Shown: piece after piece, positions 37,061 through 43,366 of the stretch | Layout: every line of letters starts with the position of its first letter | How positions within the stretch are numbered: position 1 is the first letter of the stretch | Assembly (NCBI GenBank): GCA_014236755.1 | Contig: JACCKY010000008.1 | Coordinates: forward strand, 1 to 58,553 | Source of the DNA: Candidatus Petromonas tenebris | GTDB lineage: Bacteria; Bacillota; Clostridia; Peptostreptococcales; Caminicellaceae | DNA length: 58,553 nt | Direction: 5' to 3' | Made by a program: the position numbers and the translations under genes | Notes under the pieces: generated by a model | Told to the model about the DNA's origin: nothing | Seen by the model: only the letters and a program-made list of their open reading frames with translations | Database searches by the model: none

Positions 37061-38491
37061 CTAAGAATAGTACTCAATTATCCCTTTAGCTATGGAAGCT
37101 GCAATGGATTCAATATATTTTTCATCTAACAGCTTTGTTTCCTCTTCAGGATTGGTCAAATATGCAACTTCTATATGAATTGAACTGGTAGTTATCGATC
37201 GTAGCAGATAAAAATCTTCAGTTTTAACTCCCTTGTTTACAGTACCCAATGCCTTTACCATATTTTCTATGATAAAATTTGACAGAATTTCCCCTTCTTT
37301 ATCTCCTCTATAATGATATATTTCTGTTCCAGATATGCTTGAATTTCCGAAGGAATTCATGTGAATGCTTATAAAAAAATCCGGTCTTACTTCATTTCCA
37401 GTTTTGGCTCTGTTACTCAGGGGCACATATATGTCACTTTCTCTTGTAAGCACTGCTGTTGCCCCTAGCCTTTCAATCTCCTCTTTTAATTTTGCTGCTA
37501 TGGTAAGATCAATATCTTTTTCCTTAAGTCCTCCTTCACCAATAACACCAGGATTTTCTTCTCCTCCATGACCAGGGTCTATAACTATGGTCCTATTACT
37601 TAAAGGCTTGTTTTTACTGGGCCTTTCATATTCCTTTATGTCTACCCCTGTATAATAATATTTAAAAATTTCTTCCAGAGTTTTTCCTTGCTTCGCCATT
37701 TCATTGGCTCCATACTGACATACTCCAAGTCCATGACCCTCACCCCTGGTTTCAAATTTCAAAACCGTCGGTTTCCATCCAAATCTAGTTGAATTTAATC
37801 CTAGTTGTTCTCTTATCTCGTTTCCCTTAAATATTTTATCTCCTATTTTTATCTTTAAAACTCTGCCATGTTCATCTCTTTCAATGTCTTCTACTATTCC
37901 TTCAATATTAGCTCCGTAAAATGGGGAACTGTCGGGAAGCTTAACTCCCAGTTTTTTTTCTATTTCATCTATGTCTAAATCCTTTACATTATCCCAATAG
38001 GGAGAACTTTTACAGTGATCACATAATACTTTCCTTAAATAAATGACTTTATTGTTTTCAACATTTTCCGAATTGTCTGTGGCTCCTCCACATGTGGAGT
38101 GGAATTTTGGATCTATCACCTTATTATTAAAGGTTAAAATCAAGTATTTTGTTTCTTCCTCGGCCCTTACAAGTTTTTCCCAAATCCATCTAAAGTCATC
38201 CTTCCATTTCTTCATCAGTTCATCCTTAGGAATTATATCTCCACAATGACCTTCCAAGCAAAAATCTGCGTCATGATACTTTGTGCATCCATCTCCTCCA
38301 AAGGCCTTAGCCTTTCTAATTAACATAGTTCTAGCTATTATGGATTGAACCTTTAGAGTTTCCAGTTCAAAATCTATATTAATTTGGGCTGCTACCATTT
38401 CCGGTATCAGCTCATCTACTGGTCTATTTATAAGTTGGTTCATATGTCCATCATATAACTTTATTAGCACATCGTCTTTACTGCTTCTCAC
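37061..38491 (-). CDS. SpoIID/LytB-domain and amidase_3 fusion protein
   Basis: About 476 residues. The N-terminal SpoIID-like domain (about 10-285) shows LETLKVQSIIARTM, STCGGATDNSE and GHGLGVCQYGANEMAKQGKTL. The C-terminal N-acetylmuramoyl-L-alanine amidase_3 domain (about 305-475) has zinc ligands in VIDPGHGG, the glutamate in KEKDIDLTIAAKL, SIHMNS, and catalytic E in HIEVAYLTNPEE. In SpoIID the VAxEM segment holds the catalytic glutamate; here it reads VAAQI, so the transglycosylase side may be inactive. No signal peptide or membrane segment is seen, odd for a wall enzyme. Start GTG 38491 has AGGAGG seven bases upstream. Its place next to yabG suggests a mother-cell spore role. Confidence 0.88.
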   Translation of the reverse strand: MRSSKDDVLIKLYDGHMNQLINRPVDELIPEMVAAQINIDFELETLKVQSIIARTMLIRKAKAFGGDGCTKYHDADFCLEGHCGDIIPKDELMKKWKDDFRWIWEKLVRAEEETKYLILTFNNKVIDPKFHSTCGGATDNSENVENNKVIYLRKVLCDHCKSSPYWDNVKDLDIDEIEKKLGVKLPDSSPFYGANIEGIVEDIERDEHGRVLKIKIGDKIFKGNEIREQLGLNSTRFGWKPTVLKFETRGEGHGLGVCQYGANEMAKQGKTLEEIFKYYYTGVDIKEYERPSKNKPLSNRTIVIDPGHGGEENPGVIGEGGLKEKDIDLTIAAKLKEEIERLGATAVLTRESDIYVPLSNRAKTGNEVRPDFFISIHMNSFGNSSISGTEIYHYRGDKEGEILSNFIIENMVKALGTVNKGVKTEDFYLLRSITTSSIHIEVAYLTNPEEETKLLDEKYIESIAASIAKGIIEYYS

Positions 38492-38519
38492 CTTCAAACC
38501 TCCTTCGAATTTCAGCTTT

Positions 38520-38660
38520 TGCTGCTGGTATTAAGTGAAACTTAGTTCAGATGGAGTTTAAGCTCCAATATGAACTGTAGCTAATCCCGAGGATTTAACT
38601 GCTATTTGTCTCTCACTTGTAGAGAGGAGAATATTAGGGCAATCAATCATCGGGCAAATT
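38520..38660 (-). other. possible structured remnant of an IS605-type element
   Basis: Two hairpins: TTCAGATGGAG / CTCCAATATGAA (near 38545-38573) and CTCTCACTTGTAGAGAG (38611-38627), joined by AATCCCGAGGATTTAAC. From memory this resembles ends of IS200/IS605-type elements in Clostridia. It lies between yabG and the amidase gene. Weakly supported. Confidence 0.3.
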
Positions 38661-38670
38661 TTAACTTCAT

Positions 38671-39549
38671 TTATTGATAGGGTGATTTTGGTAATCCCAT
38701 CCTATATTTACCTCTAGTTTGGAGGCCTCCCACTCCTCGTACTCCCGTAATAGTATTTTCCAGTATTTCTTCAATAGATACAAATCTATCTACACTTGTA
38801 TACGCAATTTTTTCACTAATAAATACAGGGTCTAAGCAATGGATTAGTGTCCTATGGGGTGAACTTGCAAAGTTTGCCCCTGCTTCTATTATGGCTTCAT
38901 AGAGTGAGTGACAAGCTCCTGCAAATATTACCAACTCATCCATGCCAGGTTCATACCTTCTCGCTTCTTTTACAGCTTCTATAAAGTGTTTAGTGTTTCT
39001 ATAACTGTTTATATCCGTAAAGTTTCTATATTCCTTCAGGAAACTGTCATGTCCAGTTAGTATCAATATATCGGGATTGTGTTCCCTTAAAAGACTTCCT
39101 ACAACTTTAGGTTGCTCCGATTCGGGTATGATTTTTCCTTTGGCATCTATTTCAAGTTCTGCATATACCTTGAGGCATACATCCATATATTCTCCATCTC
39201 CATCTATATGGAGTACTCTTCCTGGTTTACCAAAGTGAAAGCTGTCTATCAGGTGACCTGAAGAATGTCGGGTAAAGCTTTTAGTCTGATACACTCTTCT
39301 TTCTCTCAATATATTTTTGATTATTTTATTTATTTTTTTATTAAAGTTTTTATTAAACTGTTCTATTTTTTTAGACGGCATTTTTTCGATATCACTCTCA
39401 GGAGAATCTGCAACAATTCTCATGTTTACCCCCTTAAGGGCTATCGTTCTATCTTGATCCTGACCGTCTACTATATCTGTAACCTTGAATAAAATATCAT
39501 GATTATATGACTTTCTTGCAACTATATCTCCTATCTTTAGATTACTCAT
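38671..39549 (-). CDS. yabG: sporulation-specific protease YabG
   Basis: 292 residues, peptidase family U57. YabG trims spore coat and other spore proteins in the mother cell. Family marks: N-terminal KIGDIVARKSYNHDILFKV, HSSGHLIDSFHFGKPGRVLHIDGD, DILILTGHDSF and FAGACHSLYEAIIEAGANFASSPHR (the conserved Cys-His region). RBS TAGGAGGG precedes the ATG. A matching sigma-K promoter lies about 35 bp upstream, in agreement with YabG in Bacillus. Confidence 0.95.
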   Translation of the reverse strand: MSNLKIGDIVARKSYNHDILFKVTDIVDGQDQDRTIALKGVNMRIVADSPESDIEKMPSKKIEQFNKNFNKKINKIIKNILRERRVYQTKSFTRHSSGHLIDSFHFGKPGRVLHIDGDGEYMDVCLKVYAELEIDAKGKIIPESEQPKVVGSLLREHNPDILILTGHDSFLKEYRNFTDINSYRNTKHFIEAVKEARRYEPGMDELVIFAGACHSLYEAIIEAGANFASSPHRTLIHCLDPVFISEKIAYTSVDRFVSIEEILENTITGVRGVGGLQTRGKYRMGLPKSPYQ

Positions 39550-39582
39550 TGGAACCCTCCTAAAATATATACTGCCGTAGTA

Positions 39583-39610
39583 TATTTTATGTACATACTG
39601 ATATTTAGGT
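39583..39610 (-). promoter_or_regulatory. sigma-K promoter of yabG
   Basis: Minus strand AC (-35), 17 bases, CATAAAATA (-10, 39591-39583), a full match to the sigma-K -10 consensus CATAnnnTA. Confidence 0.7.
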
Positions 39611-39693
39611 GCATAATCACCATCAAAATATAAGCTGAGTACAATAATATAAAGAACCGTAGATTCTAAATTCTCAGTCTAAGAGGTGAAATA

Positions 39694-40479
39694 ATGATAT
39701 ATACTATAGTTCCTGCTAGAAATGTTGAAAATAGAATAGATAAAACTTTAAAGATACTTCTTAAAACAAAAACTGATAGGATATTGGCAGTAGTTAATGG
39801 TTGTATGGATAATACCCTCCAACGGATTTTAGATATAAAGAGTGACAGGGTGGATATTCTTAATTTCAATAAACCTTTAGGACTAGATGTTCCTAGAGCA
39901 GTTGGAGCATATACCGCCTATAAAGAAGGGGCTTCTACCTTTGTCTTTGTGGATGGAGATATGATAGGAAATATTGAAAAAAATATAAACGAAATAATAA
40001 CCGACATATGTGAAAAAGGCGTTGATATGGCCCTCACTGACTGTTATCCCCAAAAAGGTAAAAATAGCAATATGGCAAGGATACTTCTAGCCTTCAGAAG
40101 ACAGCTTAATATAGAGCTGGGCATTTTCGATAAAATAGGCTATGCTATTCCTAGTCACGGCCCCCATGGCTTGTCTAAAAAAATTTTAGAAAAAATCGGC
40201 TTTAGAAGCCTGGCTGTTCCTCCCGTCTCTTTAGCCCTTGCCCTAATGTTTTGTGGAAATATCAAAGTATCTACTAAAATATCAGATGAGGATTTAAAAT
40301 CTCAGGTGAGAGATGAATTTCATGCCAAACAGATTGCTAATACCATCATAGGTGATTGCATCGAAGCTCTAAGCATTTTTAGAGGCGATAGGAGGAAAAG
40401 GGGTTTTGATGGGGAAAAATTCCTAGGATATCATAAAAATAGAAGGTTTGATATATTGGATATTGTTTTAGATTCCTAA
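39694..40479 (+). CDS. glycosyltransferase family 2-like protein
   Basis: 261 residues, GT-A fold: IYTIVPARNVENRIDKTLKILL, VVNGCMDNT, GAYTAYKEGASTFVFVDGD with the metal-binding D-x-D-like VDGD. The C-terminal half is less typical. No membrane segment. It could modify spore surface or envelope glycans; the acceptor cannot be told. RBS AGAGGTGA precedes the ATG. It is on the plus strand, divergent from yabG, unlike nearly all neighbours in this part. Confidence 0.8.
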   Translation: MIYTIVPARNVENRIDKTLKILLKTKTDRILAVVNGCMDNTLQRILDIKSDRVDILNFNKPLGLDVPRAVGAYTAYKEGASTFVFVDGDMIGNIEKNINEIITDICEKGVDMALTDCYPQKGKNSNMARILLAFRRQLNIELGIFDKIGYAIPSHGPHGLSKKILEKIGFRSLAVPPVSLALALMFCGNIKVSTKISDEDLKSQVRDEFHAKQIANTIIGDCIEALSIFRGDRRKRGFDGEKFLGYHKNRRFDILDIVLDS

Positions 40480-40486
40480 TTTATGG

Positions 40487-40648
40487 GTCAAAGAACAAGT
40501 TCATAGTTGGTAGCCATATGAAAGTCTTTCTTTAGGATCATAACTATTCGATATTCAATTATTTTAGGGGTGTTGAGTACTGGACGATGGCTCTAGGTCA
40601 ATCTTTATCCTGTCTCCTTTCTCCTATACCCTATCACCTGTTATCTTT
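40487..40648 (-). repeat. heptad-repeat composite element, copy 9 (decayed)
   Basis: Plus strand AAGTTCATAGTTGGTAGCC, a GTGTTGAGTACTGGACG block and CTCCTATACCCTATCACC. More diverged than other copies; it abuts the CotS-like stop. Confidence 0.5.
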
Positions 40649-40655
40649 TATACCT

Positions 40656-41657
40656 CTACATAAATTCTCTACAATATCTATCTAAAAATCGAATTTGAGA
40701 ATTAATATTTTCTACTGCATGCCTTAAGCCCTTGTAATAAATTTTCTCATTGAGGCTATAACTGCCACAATAGTATTCACTGGATATTTTCCAAATTCTG
40801 TGAGGAAATTTAAAAAGAGAATCCATCACCTTATATTCTTGTTCTTGTATAGTTCTAATACAGTTGTATGCTTCTATTATTTTTAAAGCTATATCAAAAT
40901 TCCACCAAGTTCTATATGAAAAATCCATAATCAAGTTAACTATATCAAGACACCTTAGTTCATATCTGCAATAGTCAAAGTTTATTATATTATACTTGTC
41001 CCTATCATCTACAATAATGTTTAAATAATTATAATTTCCATGACATAAGTAACACTTTTTTTCTTCCTCTTCCACCTGTTTAAAATAGCCGTTCCTTTGT
41101 AAGGTTTTCACAGCTTCAATTGCCATGTAATAGATTGTATCAATATTTTGTAAAAAAAGTATATCTGTAGGTTTTTTTACTGATTTCATCTTTGCAAGAC
41201 TTTTCATGTATGTAAAGTCCTCACATCTTTTTAGAAGAATTTCCGGCCACTTTCCCAGGTTTGATCTCCAAGTACTTCCCTCTGAAGGTTTATAACCCTT
41301 AGATGATTTATGGAAATAAGCTAAGGTCTTTGCAGCCATTTCAATATCATAAAAACTATAAGGATTACATCTCTTTCCCTTTATCCATCTTGCCATTACA
41401 TATAACTTTTTGTTTAATTCTACATATGGTTTCCCCCCAGCAGTCACATATCTATCTGTAAATAAAAATCCCCTTTCTGCCAAATGCTCTTTAGCACCGT
41501 GTAAAAAAAGAAGGTCTAATTTATCATCATTCACTGGTTTAAGACTGTAAAGTCCTCTATCGGTTCTTATTATACAGTAAGTTCCAAAATAAAAAATGGT
41601 TTTAGTCTCTAACCCAAATTTCTCAACTATTTCTTTTAGTTCGTTTTTGTTTATCAA
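40656..41657 (-). CDS. CotS-family spore coat kinase-like protein
   Basis: About 333 residues of the CotS/YutH/YsxE type, an aminoglycoside-phosphotransferase fold found in spore coats. Marks: YCIIRTDRGLYSLKPV, ARWIKGKRCNPYSFYDIEMAAKTLAYFHKSSKGYKP, then CHGNYNYLNIIVDDRDKYNIINFDYCR. The catalytic-loop HGDxxxxN is here HGNYNYLN and the DFD-like metal site is NFDYCR, so kinase activity is uncertain. Start TTG 41657 has GGAGG eight bases upstream; the GTG at 41666 touches the Shine-Dalgarno. Confidence 0.88.
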   Translation of the reverse strand: MINKNELKEIVEKFGLETKTIFYFGTYCIIRTDRGLYSLKPVNDDKLDLLFLHGAKEHLAERGFLFTDRYVTAGGKPYVELNKKLYVMARWIKGKRCNPYSFYDIEMAAKTLAYFHKSSKGYKPSEGSTWRSNLGKWPEILLKRCEDFTYMKSLAKMKSVKKPTDILFLQNIDTIYYMAIEAVKTLQRNGYFKQVEEEEKKCYLCHGNYNYLNIIVDDRDKYNIINFDYCRYELRCLDIVNLIMDFSYRTWWNFDIALKIIEAYNCIRTIQEQEYKVMDSLFKFPHRIWKISSEYYCGSYSLNEKIYYKGLRHAVENINSQIRFLDRYCREFM

Positions 41658-41671
41658 ATATTCCACCTCCA

Positions 41672-41868: not shown

Positions 41869-42060
41869 TTTATCATAATATAGTTTATTTATTTTAAAGG
41901 AATTATATGATTTGTGTAGAATAACTAATTTATGGGGTGCCAACTTTAAAACAAAAGTTAGTTGTTTATATCTTGTATAAACATATTATTATGGTAAAAT
42001 CCCAAATTAAATTTTAATAAATGAATTATAGGGTAATAATAAATCTAGGAGGTGGATTAA

Positions 42061-42288
42061 ATGAAAAAGGTGGTAATATTCACAAGCAATACTTGACCCC
42101 ATTGTCACACAGCGAAGGAGTATCTTTCGCAAAAAGGTGTGGATTTTCAGGAAAGAAACATTAATGAAGATCCAAATGCAAGAAAAGAACTTATGAAGAA
42201 AAAAATCATGGGTGTACCTGCAATTTTTGTAGAAGATGAAGTAGTAGTTGGTTTTGACAAAAACAGACTTGATCAGCTACTGTCCTAA
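42061..42288 (+). CDS. selenocysteine-containing glutaredoxin-like protein
   Basis: 75 residues if the TGA at 42094-42096 is read as selenocysteine: MKKVVIFTSNT-U-PHCHTAKEYL. It is a complete glutaredoxin/YruB-like fold: redox motif U-P-H-C in place of C-P-H-C, cis-proline motif GVPAIF (about 52-57), the VGFDK loop and C-terminal helix to LLS. Without recoding the product would stop after 11 residues, although the rest is intact and well coded. RBS GGAGGTGG stands upstream, and a hairpin fit for a bacterial SECIS begins 10 bases after the TGA. Likely role: cytoplasmic thiol-disulfide exchange in an anaerobe. A terminator follows. Confidence 0.9.
42106..42141 (+). ncRNA. SECIS-like hairpin inside the selenoprotein mRNA
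   Basis: Inner stem GCGAAGG / CTTTCGC (seven pairs, one G-T) with 5-base loop AGTAT, and an outer stem CACAC / GTGTG. The loop begins 23 bases after the TGA, within the usual distance for bacterial SECIS elements. Confidence 0.75.
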
Positions 42289-42291
42289 ACA

Positions 42292-42320
42292 GAGGGCCGA
42301 GAAAAATCTCGGCTCTTTTT
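42292..42320 (+). terminator. terminator of the selenoprotein gene
   Basis: GAG-GCCGAGA / TCTCGGCTC stem followed by TTTTTATTTTTT. Confidence 0.9.
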
Positions 42321-42610: not shown

Positions 42611-42718
42611 ATGGGAAATAACAAATGCATGGATAAAAAACTTGATAATAATTTGCTTATTTTGCTATTAATATTGCTATGCTGTCTATGTAAGCCAAAG
42701 CATGATAAATGTAACTAA
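42611..42718 (+). CDS. Cys-rich hydrophobic peptide, 35 aa
   Basis: Not recognised. MGNNKCMDKKLDNNLLIL start, a leucine-rich core LLILLLILLCCLC and a basic Cys-containing tail KPKHDKCN. RBS AGGAGG ends ten bases before the ATG. One predicted short membrane segment. A terminator follows. First of eight similar short genes in a row; on its own it would be hard to defend, but the RBS, terminator and neighbours support it. Confidence 0.65.
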   Translation: MGNNKCMDKKLDNNLLILLLILLCCLCKPKHDKCN

Positions 42719-42877: not shown

Positions 42878-43039
42878 ATGTCATATAGAAGAGGTTTTTT
42901 TGGTGATAAAGATTTTATATTACCACTACTATTAATATTATGTTTATGCTTTTTCAATGATGATGATATATTAGGCGACTTTGATGAATTATTGCCTCTA
43001 CTAATCATTCTGTTTTGCTGTTGTTTCAATAGGTATTAG
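42878..43039 (+). CDS. acidic-hydrophobic peptide, 53 aa (DDDILGDFDELL type)
   Basis: Not recognised. MSYRRGFFGDKDF, hydrophobic stretch ILPLLLILCLCFF, the acidic motif NDDDILGDFDELL, and PLLIILFCCCFNRY. RBS CAGGAGGTG precedes the ATG by eight bases. The motif DDxILGDFDELLPxLxILFCCCF recurs twice in the next gene, so the two are relatives by duplication. The mix of an acidic centre and cysteine-rich hydrophobic ends suggests a small coat or membrane peptide of the spore (inference). Confidence 0.75.
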   Translation: MSYRRGFFGDKDFILPLLLILCLCFFNDDDILGDFDELLPLLIILFCCCFNRY

Positions 43040-43150: not shown

Positions 43151-43366
43151 ATGGGCTATCTTGGTCATAGAGATAACAAATGGTTGTGGATAGTATTACT
43201 ATGCTGCTTGTTCAAGGATGATAACATTTTAGGAGACTTTGACGATTTACTGCTATTGCTAATCTTATTCTTCTGCTTATGTGACGGCGACGATATACTA
43301 GGTGACTTTGACGAGTTGCTACCTTTTTTAGTAATACTTTTCTGCTGCTGTTTCAACCATCATTAA
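43151..43366 (+). CDS. acidic-hydrophobic peptide with internal duplication, 71 aa
   Basis: Not recognised. After MGYLGHRDNKWLWIVLL it carries two copies of one unit: KDDNILGDFDDLLLLLILFF and GDDILGDFDELLPFLVILFC, each followed by cysteines. It is thus the 53-aa neighbour plus one more repeat. RBS AAGGAGGTG precedes the ATG. A terminator (GCTGGG / CCCAGC) follows. Upstream at 43092-43121 lies a palindrome CCAGACTTA / TAAGTCTGG. Confidence 0.78.
   Translation: MGYLGHRDNKWLWIVLLCCLFKDDNILGDFDDLLLLLILFFCLCDGDDILGDFDELLPFLVILFCCCFNHH

Follow-up and report, generated by a model that had tools for sequence, protein, structure and literature searches.

A predicted selenocysteine glutaredoxin gene with an in-frame TGA in Candidatus Petromonas tenebris

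We conclude that positions 42061-42288 (+ strand) of the window, that is, of the whole 58,553-nucleotide stretch of Candidatus Petromonas tenebris DNA analysed, almost certainly encode a small redox protein whose active site is predicted to carry selenocysteine (Sec) through readthrough of an internal TGA. The evidence computed here comprises the coding sequence, the Sec machinery of the genome, a TGA common to homologs, a link between a hairpin and the TGA, and constraint on the codons after the TGA. Sec glutaredoxins have been described before in related bacteria; what is new here is the member in Petromonas, hereafter Sec-Grx. The features of the locus are as follows.

40656-41666, - strand: CotS-family spore coat protein, the divergent upstream neighbour (TIGR02906, 247.4 bits against a cut-off of 172.7)
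42047-42055, + strand: Shine-Dalgarno-like AGGAGGTGG, read from the sequence, 5 nt before the ATG; a good ribosome-binding site
42061-42288, + strand: predicted selenocysteine glutaredoxin coding sequence, 75 residues plus TAA (translation with TGA as U, PF00462, TIGR02196, PDB 7c10)
42094-42105, + strand: redox motif U-P-H-C, with the TGA (Sec) codon at 42094-42096, a codon compared across 98 distinct homologs
42112-42130, + strand: putative bacterial SECIS hairpin GCGAAGG-AGUAU-CUUUCGC, or 8 pairs with the loop GUA (published constraints, stem energy, homolog pair counts)
42211-42219, + strand: cis-Pro motif G-V-P (translation, aligned homologs)
42291-42318, + strand: intrinsic-terminator-like hairpin with 12 pairs and a T tail (pattern scan)

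The gene and the selenocysteine machinery of the genome

With TGA read as U, the frame from the ATG at 42061 to the TAA at 42286-42288 translates as MKKVVIFTSNTUPHCHTAKEYLSQKGVDFQERNINEDPNARKELMKKKIMGVPAIFVEDEVVVGFDKNRLDQLLS. The predicted protein has both the C/U-x-x-C motif (UPHC) and the cis-Pro loop (GVP). A first-pass annotation of this DNA had described an in-frame TGA at the first cysteine of T-U-P-H-C-H, a cis-Pro motif GVPAIF, and a TAA followed by a terminator. The translation bore out these points: the TGA is codon 12, GVPAIF occupies residues 51-56, and the terminator-like hairpin follows the TAA. The terminator scan returned two terminator-like sites, which are both strands of one hairpin, against a shuffled mean of 0.2. 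The annotation had also counted 64 in-frame codons after the TGA; the frame is indeed intact, and the correct count is 63 sense codons plus the stop. Its statement that ordinary ORF calling misses the gene is right for a table-11 list with a 60-residue minimum, which contains no ORF here, and is demonstrated for such a list only. Reading the TGA as Sec would thus give the correct call of a gene that the table-11 ORF list leaves out.

The CotS neighbour adjoins the Sec or Cys glutaredoxin gene in all five genomes of the family that were compared, and by neighbour clustering it marks the orthologous locus. A functional link to the adjoining spore genes was considered and rejected, as the CotS neighbour occurs only in these five family genomes among the loci whose flanks were compared. 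The upstream region 37061-41666 contains sporulation-related genes, including those of a SpoIID/amidase protein, a YabG peptidase and the CotS protein. On the 3' side of Sec-Grx lie three small ORFs on the + strand (42611-42718, 42878-43039 and 43151-43366), each behind an AGGAGGT-type site. Their products are Leu- and Cys-rich, and the last two have DDILGDFDELLP in common as well as CCCF-type tails. A Pfam scan of the three gave zero matches.

The Petromonas genome (2.94 Mb in 120 contigs, 99.95% complete) carries tRNA-Sec, selB, selA and selD on a single contig (C113), each above its cut-off in profile searches. The scores were 410.8 bits for selB, 643.8 for selA and 401.9 for selD; among 14 controls, selB was above cut-off in two, selA in one and selD in two. 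The tRNA-Sec scored 76.7 bits against a gathering score of 47, and ARAGORN assigned it the anticodon TCA. The tRNA-Sec model also matched elsewhere: it had hits in all 14 controls, five of them above cut-off, and its second above-cut-off match in the Petromonas genome is a tRNA-Ser by ARAGORN. Given that the model matches all controls, the tRNA-Sec call depends on ARAGORN and the score gap. The first-pass annotation had named the sel genes as the check on its reading and their absence as the evidence against it; selA, selB, selC and selD were all found.

Other genes of this genome also contain a TGA in frame. The selD gene (L137:3046-4092) has one, at SGUAAKIG, and the SelD score is 408 bits when it is read through. 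Contig C65 carries a thioredoxin gene, a gene for reductase component B, grdA and grdB, with one TGA each in grdA and grdB. Since selD, grdA and grdB each contain a TGA, three further genes need TGA as Sec to be whole. Sec-Grx would join the genes of SelD, GrdA and GrdB as a further selenoprotein gene of the Petromonas genome. We also note that L145:160-6997 is a glycine/sarcosine-type reductase cluster with a thioredoxin gene and the TGA-containing grdA and grdB.

Protein family and possible redox partners

The Sec-Grx protein matched PF00462 (Glutaredoxin) with 72.4 bits (E 3.4e-20), against a gathering cut-off of 22.9. The top NCBIfam model was TIGR02196 (YruB family), at 87.3 bits with U read as C, marginally below its cut-off of 88.55; YruB and Cp9 are, we assume, the same line. 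The best PDB matches were 7c10 (E 4.3e-27) and 7c12/7c13 (E 1.2e-25), and 43 of the 73 residues aligned with 7c10 are identical when U is read as C. The BC3987 structures 3zij and 3zit were also matched (E 3e-10 and 1.6e-9). The glutaredoxin family, the Sec reading and the comparison with clostridial Sec glutaredoxins proposed in the first pass all hold.

We take 7c10, 7c12 and 7c13 to be cGrx1 of C. oremlandii, because the residues and numbering in the accessible part of PMC7642778 agree with these chains and Ser occupies the second Cys position in 7c12; a search of that text for the three PDB codes gave no hit. That text names Cys13, Cys16, Asn11, His15, Glu25 and Asn26 of cGrx1, and describes cGrx1 as a native selenoprotein whose Sec was swapped for Cys in its structures. 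Like cGrx1 of Clostridium (Alkaliphilus) oremlandii, as presented there, the Petromonas protein is predicted to combine a glutaredoxin fold, a native catalytic Sec and a U(C)PXC motif. With Cp9 of C. pasteurianum and BC3987 of Bacillus cereus it shares TIGR02196 as the best model, the 3zij/3zit matches and the Leu/Met near position 44, but it has Sec in place of the first Cys, and neither a thioredoxin reductase nor a peroxiredoxin gene adjoins it. It also resembles the Uxx-star selenoproteins (NF041212, NF041114, NF041211, NF047338), which are small, glutaredoxin-like and have an N-terminal Sec. Family 1 of these is tabulated as UxxT in the available portion of PMC13188914, whereas Sec-Grx has a Cys (UxxC). 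Membership of the Uxx-star families was rejected, as the scores stood below the cut-offs throughout (NF041212 57.4 against 66, NF041114 34.1 against 72, NF041211 31 against 100, NF047338 32.9 against 97). According to the part of PMC1794560 available, a 2006 table already included Sec glutaredoxins from Alkaliphilus metalliredigenes (two), Moorella thermoacetica and Geobacter sulfurreducens. The accessible parts of two reviews (PMC9312934, PMC13188914) place the Sec glutaredoxin family above the rows marked 'predicted', citing the 2011 cGrx1 paper.

Sec insertion, the redox chemistry and the partners are proposed from these comparisons. The hairpin at 42112-42130 would direct SelB and Sec-tRNA(Sec) to decode the UGA at 42094-42096. 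In the protein, Sec12 as selenolate would attack an oxidised substrate, and Cys15 would resolve the mixed bond to give a selenenyl-sulfide, which would then be reduced by a reductase. With Cp9-like partners, the donor would be a thioredoxin-reductase-like flavoprotein and the acceptor a peroxiredoxin or another thiol enzyme, with no glutathione involved.

Such a Cp9-like role, drawn by analogy, is the partner reading that we favour, and we hold it tentatively. In the accessible part of PMC3720550, the Cp9 redoxin gene is flanked by the genes of a peroxiredoxin and of an NADH-dependent thioredoxin reductase, and the redoxin shuttles electrons between these two enzymes. According to the same text, NrdH lacks the Leu/Met that Cp9 and BC3987 redoxins have, and Sec-Grx carries Leu/Met at residues 44-45 as the latter two do, a comparison made by position and not by alignment. 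Thr8, Pro and Gly-Phe are common to Cp9, BC3987 and NrdH in that source; since they occur in all three redoxin groups, they do not single out Cp9. The motif of Sec-Grx, CPHC with U as C, differs from the prevalent Cp9 motif CP[YW]C. A Cp9-type operon flanked by thioredoxin-reductase-like and peroxiredoxin genes is absent at this locus, where the neighbours scanned were CotS, a glycosyltransferase, YabG and small ORFs. Thioredoxin reductase (TIGR01292) had no match above cut-off in the Petromonas genome, and 12 of the 14 controls passed. At the end of contig C89, a TrxR/AhpF-like flavoprotein is represented by its first 40 residues only (TIGR03143, 60.6 bits), and a 34-residue stretch at the end of contig C83 matches this start. 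With the same flavoprotein start at two contig ends (L143:6052-6173 and the L144 end), the assembly was probably interrupted at these points by a TrxR/AhpF-like gene present as a repeat.

We consider it improbable that Sec-Grx instead acts as proposed for cGrx1, with glutathione as its reductant and methionine sulfoxide reductase A (MsrA) as the enzyme that it serves. The 43 of 73 identical residues shared with the cGrx1 structure speak for this, as does the proposal, in the parts of PMC7642778 and PMC4479559 available, that cGrx1 reduces the Sec-MsrA of its own organism. MsrA, the proposed partner of cGrx1, was however not found in the Petromonas genome by TIGR00401 or PF01625, each of which matches 12 of the 14 controls. 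The glutathione ligase model TIGR01435 had no match in this genome either, a weak negative given that none of the 14 controls was above cut-off and three matched. The pairing was further examined across genomes. At E 1e-20, 107 of the 393 genomes of the order had a match to the redoxin, and 80 were compared for MsrA: the 37 listed with a Sec-Grx and 43 of the 70 other matching genomes (the first in list order with completeness >=95%). A genome was called 'Cys-only' when it had no TGA match among the matches listed. MsrA had no match in 10 of the 37 listed Sec-Grx genomes (7 of 30 at >=90% completeness) and in 8 of the 43 genomes without Sec-Grx. An MsrA with an in-frame TGA occurred in 7 of 37 Sec-Grx genomes and in 7 of 43 without, so no association was seen (Fisher p 0.78); a TGA-containing MsrA was counted wherever the TGA falls in frame, and the partial MsrA of G064, with a TGA and a TAG, was left out. 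The comparison weakens Sec-MsrA as an explanation for the retention of Sec glutaredoxins. In the literature searched on the topic we found no statement on the co-occurrence of Sec-Grx and Sec-MsrA across genomes, and one may exist in print.

The Petromonas genome also encodes a Cys paralog (L136:2867-3109, motif CIYC). It too is a glutaredoxin, 49% identical to Sec-Grx, but it differs in having a Cys codon and other neighbours, and it sits in an all-Cys tree group of 25 rows. Its presence would suit a reading in which the gene is mainly a selenium-dependent switch, the UGA acting as a stop under selenium shortage while the Cys paralog substitutes. The UGA of a Sec codon competes with termination, which is a further point for this reading. 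We nevertheless judge the switch as the main function to be highly improbable.

Selenocysteine and cysteine codons among homologs

The homolog set was gathered from the order-wide genomes, a family search and a contig scan; it comprised 106 loci, and removal of 8 duplicates left 98 distinct homologs. The codon at the Sec position was TGA in 46, TGT in 33 and TGC in 19, so that the TGA of Sec-Grx aligns with Cys in 52 of them. The ratio of 46 to 98 is no frequency, since the set is non-random: it holds all listed TGA matches except G028 C49, and only a part of the Cys matches, taken with the best E-values first.

We then compared Sec-Grx with L025, a TGA copy from another genus. After the TGA, the two differ at 11, 5 and 31 sites at codon positions 1, 2 and 3, respectively. 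The third-position share of 31 in 47 exceeds one third (binomial p 5e-6), indicating that translation beyond the TGA is under selection.

These results bear on the idea that the gene is in truth a Cys glutaredoxin gene, in which the TGA arose by sequencing error or by a nonsense mutation that made it a pseudogene. TGC and TGT are each one base from TGA, and the CotS-adjoining copies of G002 and G003 carry TGC; against this, the CotS-adjoining copies of G001 and G004 have TGA at this codon, as do 46 distinct homologs, those in other genera arguing against sequencing error, and the hairpin at 42112-42130, the third-position pattern and the Sec machinery oppose both error and pseudogene, so we regard this idea as virtually ruled out. 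A recent phage origin was rejected as well: 115 phage records matched, all at less than 60% identity, the best at 41%.

A tree was built from 96 proteins with the Sec column blanked and L033 and L044 left out. It was a quick tree that gave long-branch warnings, with 13 of 92 inner branches starred. The best tree shows 19 changes of the Sec/Cys label, and starred (supported) branches account for five at the least. This indicates that Sec and Cys have been exchanged repeatedly within the redoxin family. Such exchange is already a known theme, as the available part of PMC1794560 documents. Near orthologs at one locus, some with Sec and some with Cys, would offer a gauge of the benefit of selenium to a small redoxin.

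Several paralogs were noted in the course of this comparison. Two of the family's genomes have a second Sec-type paralog (L029 and L032), and the frame of L032 continues into a Cys-rich tail in which CPxC occurs twice. The Cys paralogs L027, L028, L030 and L031, from four genomes, have in common an upstream gene whose product, about 170 residues long, contains several Cys motifs.

The SECIS-like hairpin

The loop of the putative SECIS hairpin starts 22-23 nt after the UGA, and the stem-only energy is -8.3 kcal/mol in the 8-pair form. Section 5 of PMC13188914, in its accessible part, gives the constraints on bacterial SECIS elements as a loop of 3-9 nt located 16-37 nt after the UGA, a stem of 4-16 bp, a G in the first two loop positions and an energy <= -7.5 kcal/mol. 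The hairpin at 42112-42130 agrees with all four, the energy being that of the stem only. Synonymous resampling, in which the protein was held fixed and codons followed the usage in six genes of the window, reached the hairpin energy in 61 of 20000 sequences. Across both strands of the window, 11 of 1930 TGA triplets, the one of Sec-Grx included, have an equally good hairpin.

The hairpin is linked to the TGA among the homologs. The mean stem energy was -5.47 in the 46 TGA homologs and -0.07 in the 52 Cys homologs (Mann-Whitney p 3e-16, a test that ignores kinship). Within the PHC motif, the means were -5.65 (41 TGA homologs) and -1.07 (21 Cys homologs), with p 7e-9, which likewise ignores kinship. 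A stem energy <= -5 was reached by 28 of 46 TGA homologs compared with 3 of 52 Cys homologs, and <= -7.5 kcal/mol, again for the stem only, by just 8 of 46 compared with 0 of 52. In a kinship-aware test, a hairpin (<= -2.5) tracked Sec in a mean of 4.5 of 5 independent pairs (median p 0.0625).

The pairing itself was assessed in the 46 TGA homologs. Paired cells made up 76.6% of the helix, compared with 72.0 in shuffles and 66.3 in the best slid version. Double-sided changes occurred in 17 cells compared with 4.8 in shuffles, and one slid version likewise gave 17. RNAalifold on the 46 TGA homologs returned zero consensus pairs. The fold of the hairpin region was not unusual (z -1.15; 30 of 200 shuffles folded equally well), and Rfam had zero matches in the window at the gathering score.

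Taking the tree, the hairpins and the partner searches together, we propose with some reserve that the redoxin family may form a natural series of Sec/Cys switches, with many changes within one order and the SECIS hairpin coming and going alongside. In this series the Sec form would operate independently of MsrA and glutathione, with a thioredoxin-reductase-like flavoprotein as its electron donor. If this is true, the published pairing of a Sec glutaredoxin with a Sec MsrA would be a local case and not the reason why the Sec form is kept.

Finally, the stem of the TGA genes is retained in the Cys homologs L036 and L113, and in part in a third, L023. The hairpins in these three are possibly remnants of a Sec past, left by recent changes from Sec to Cys.
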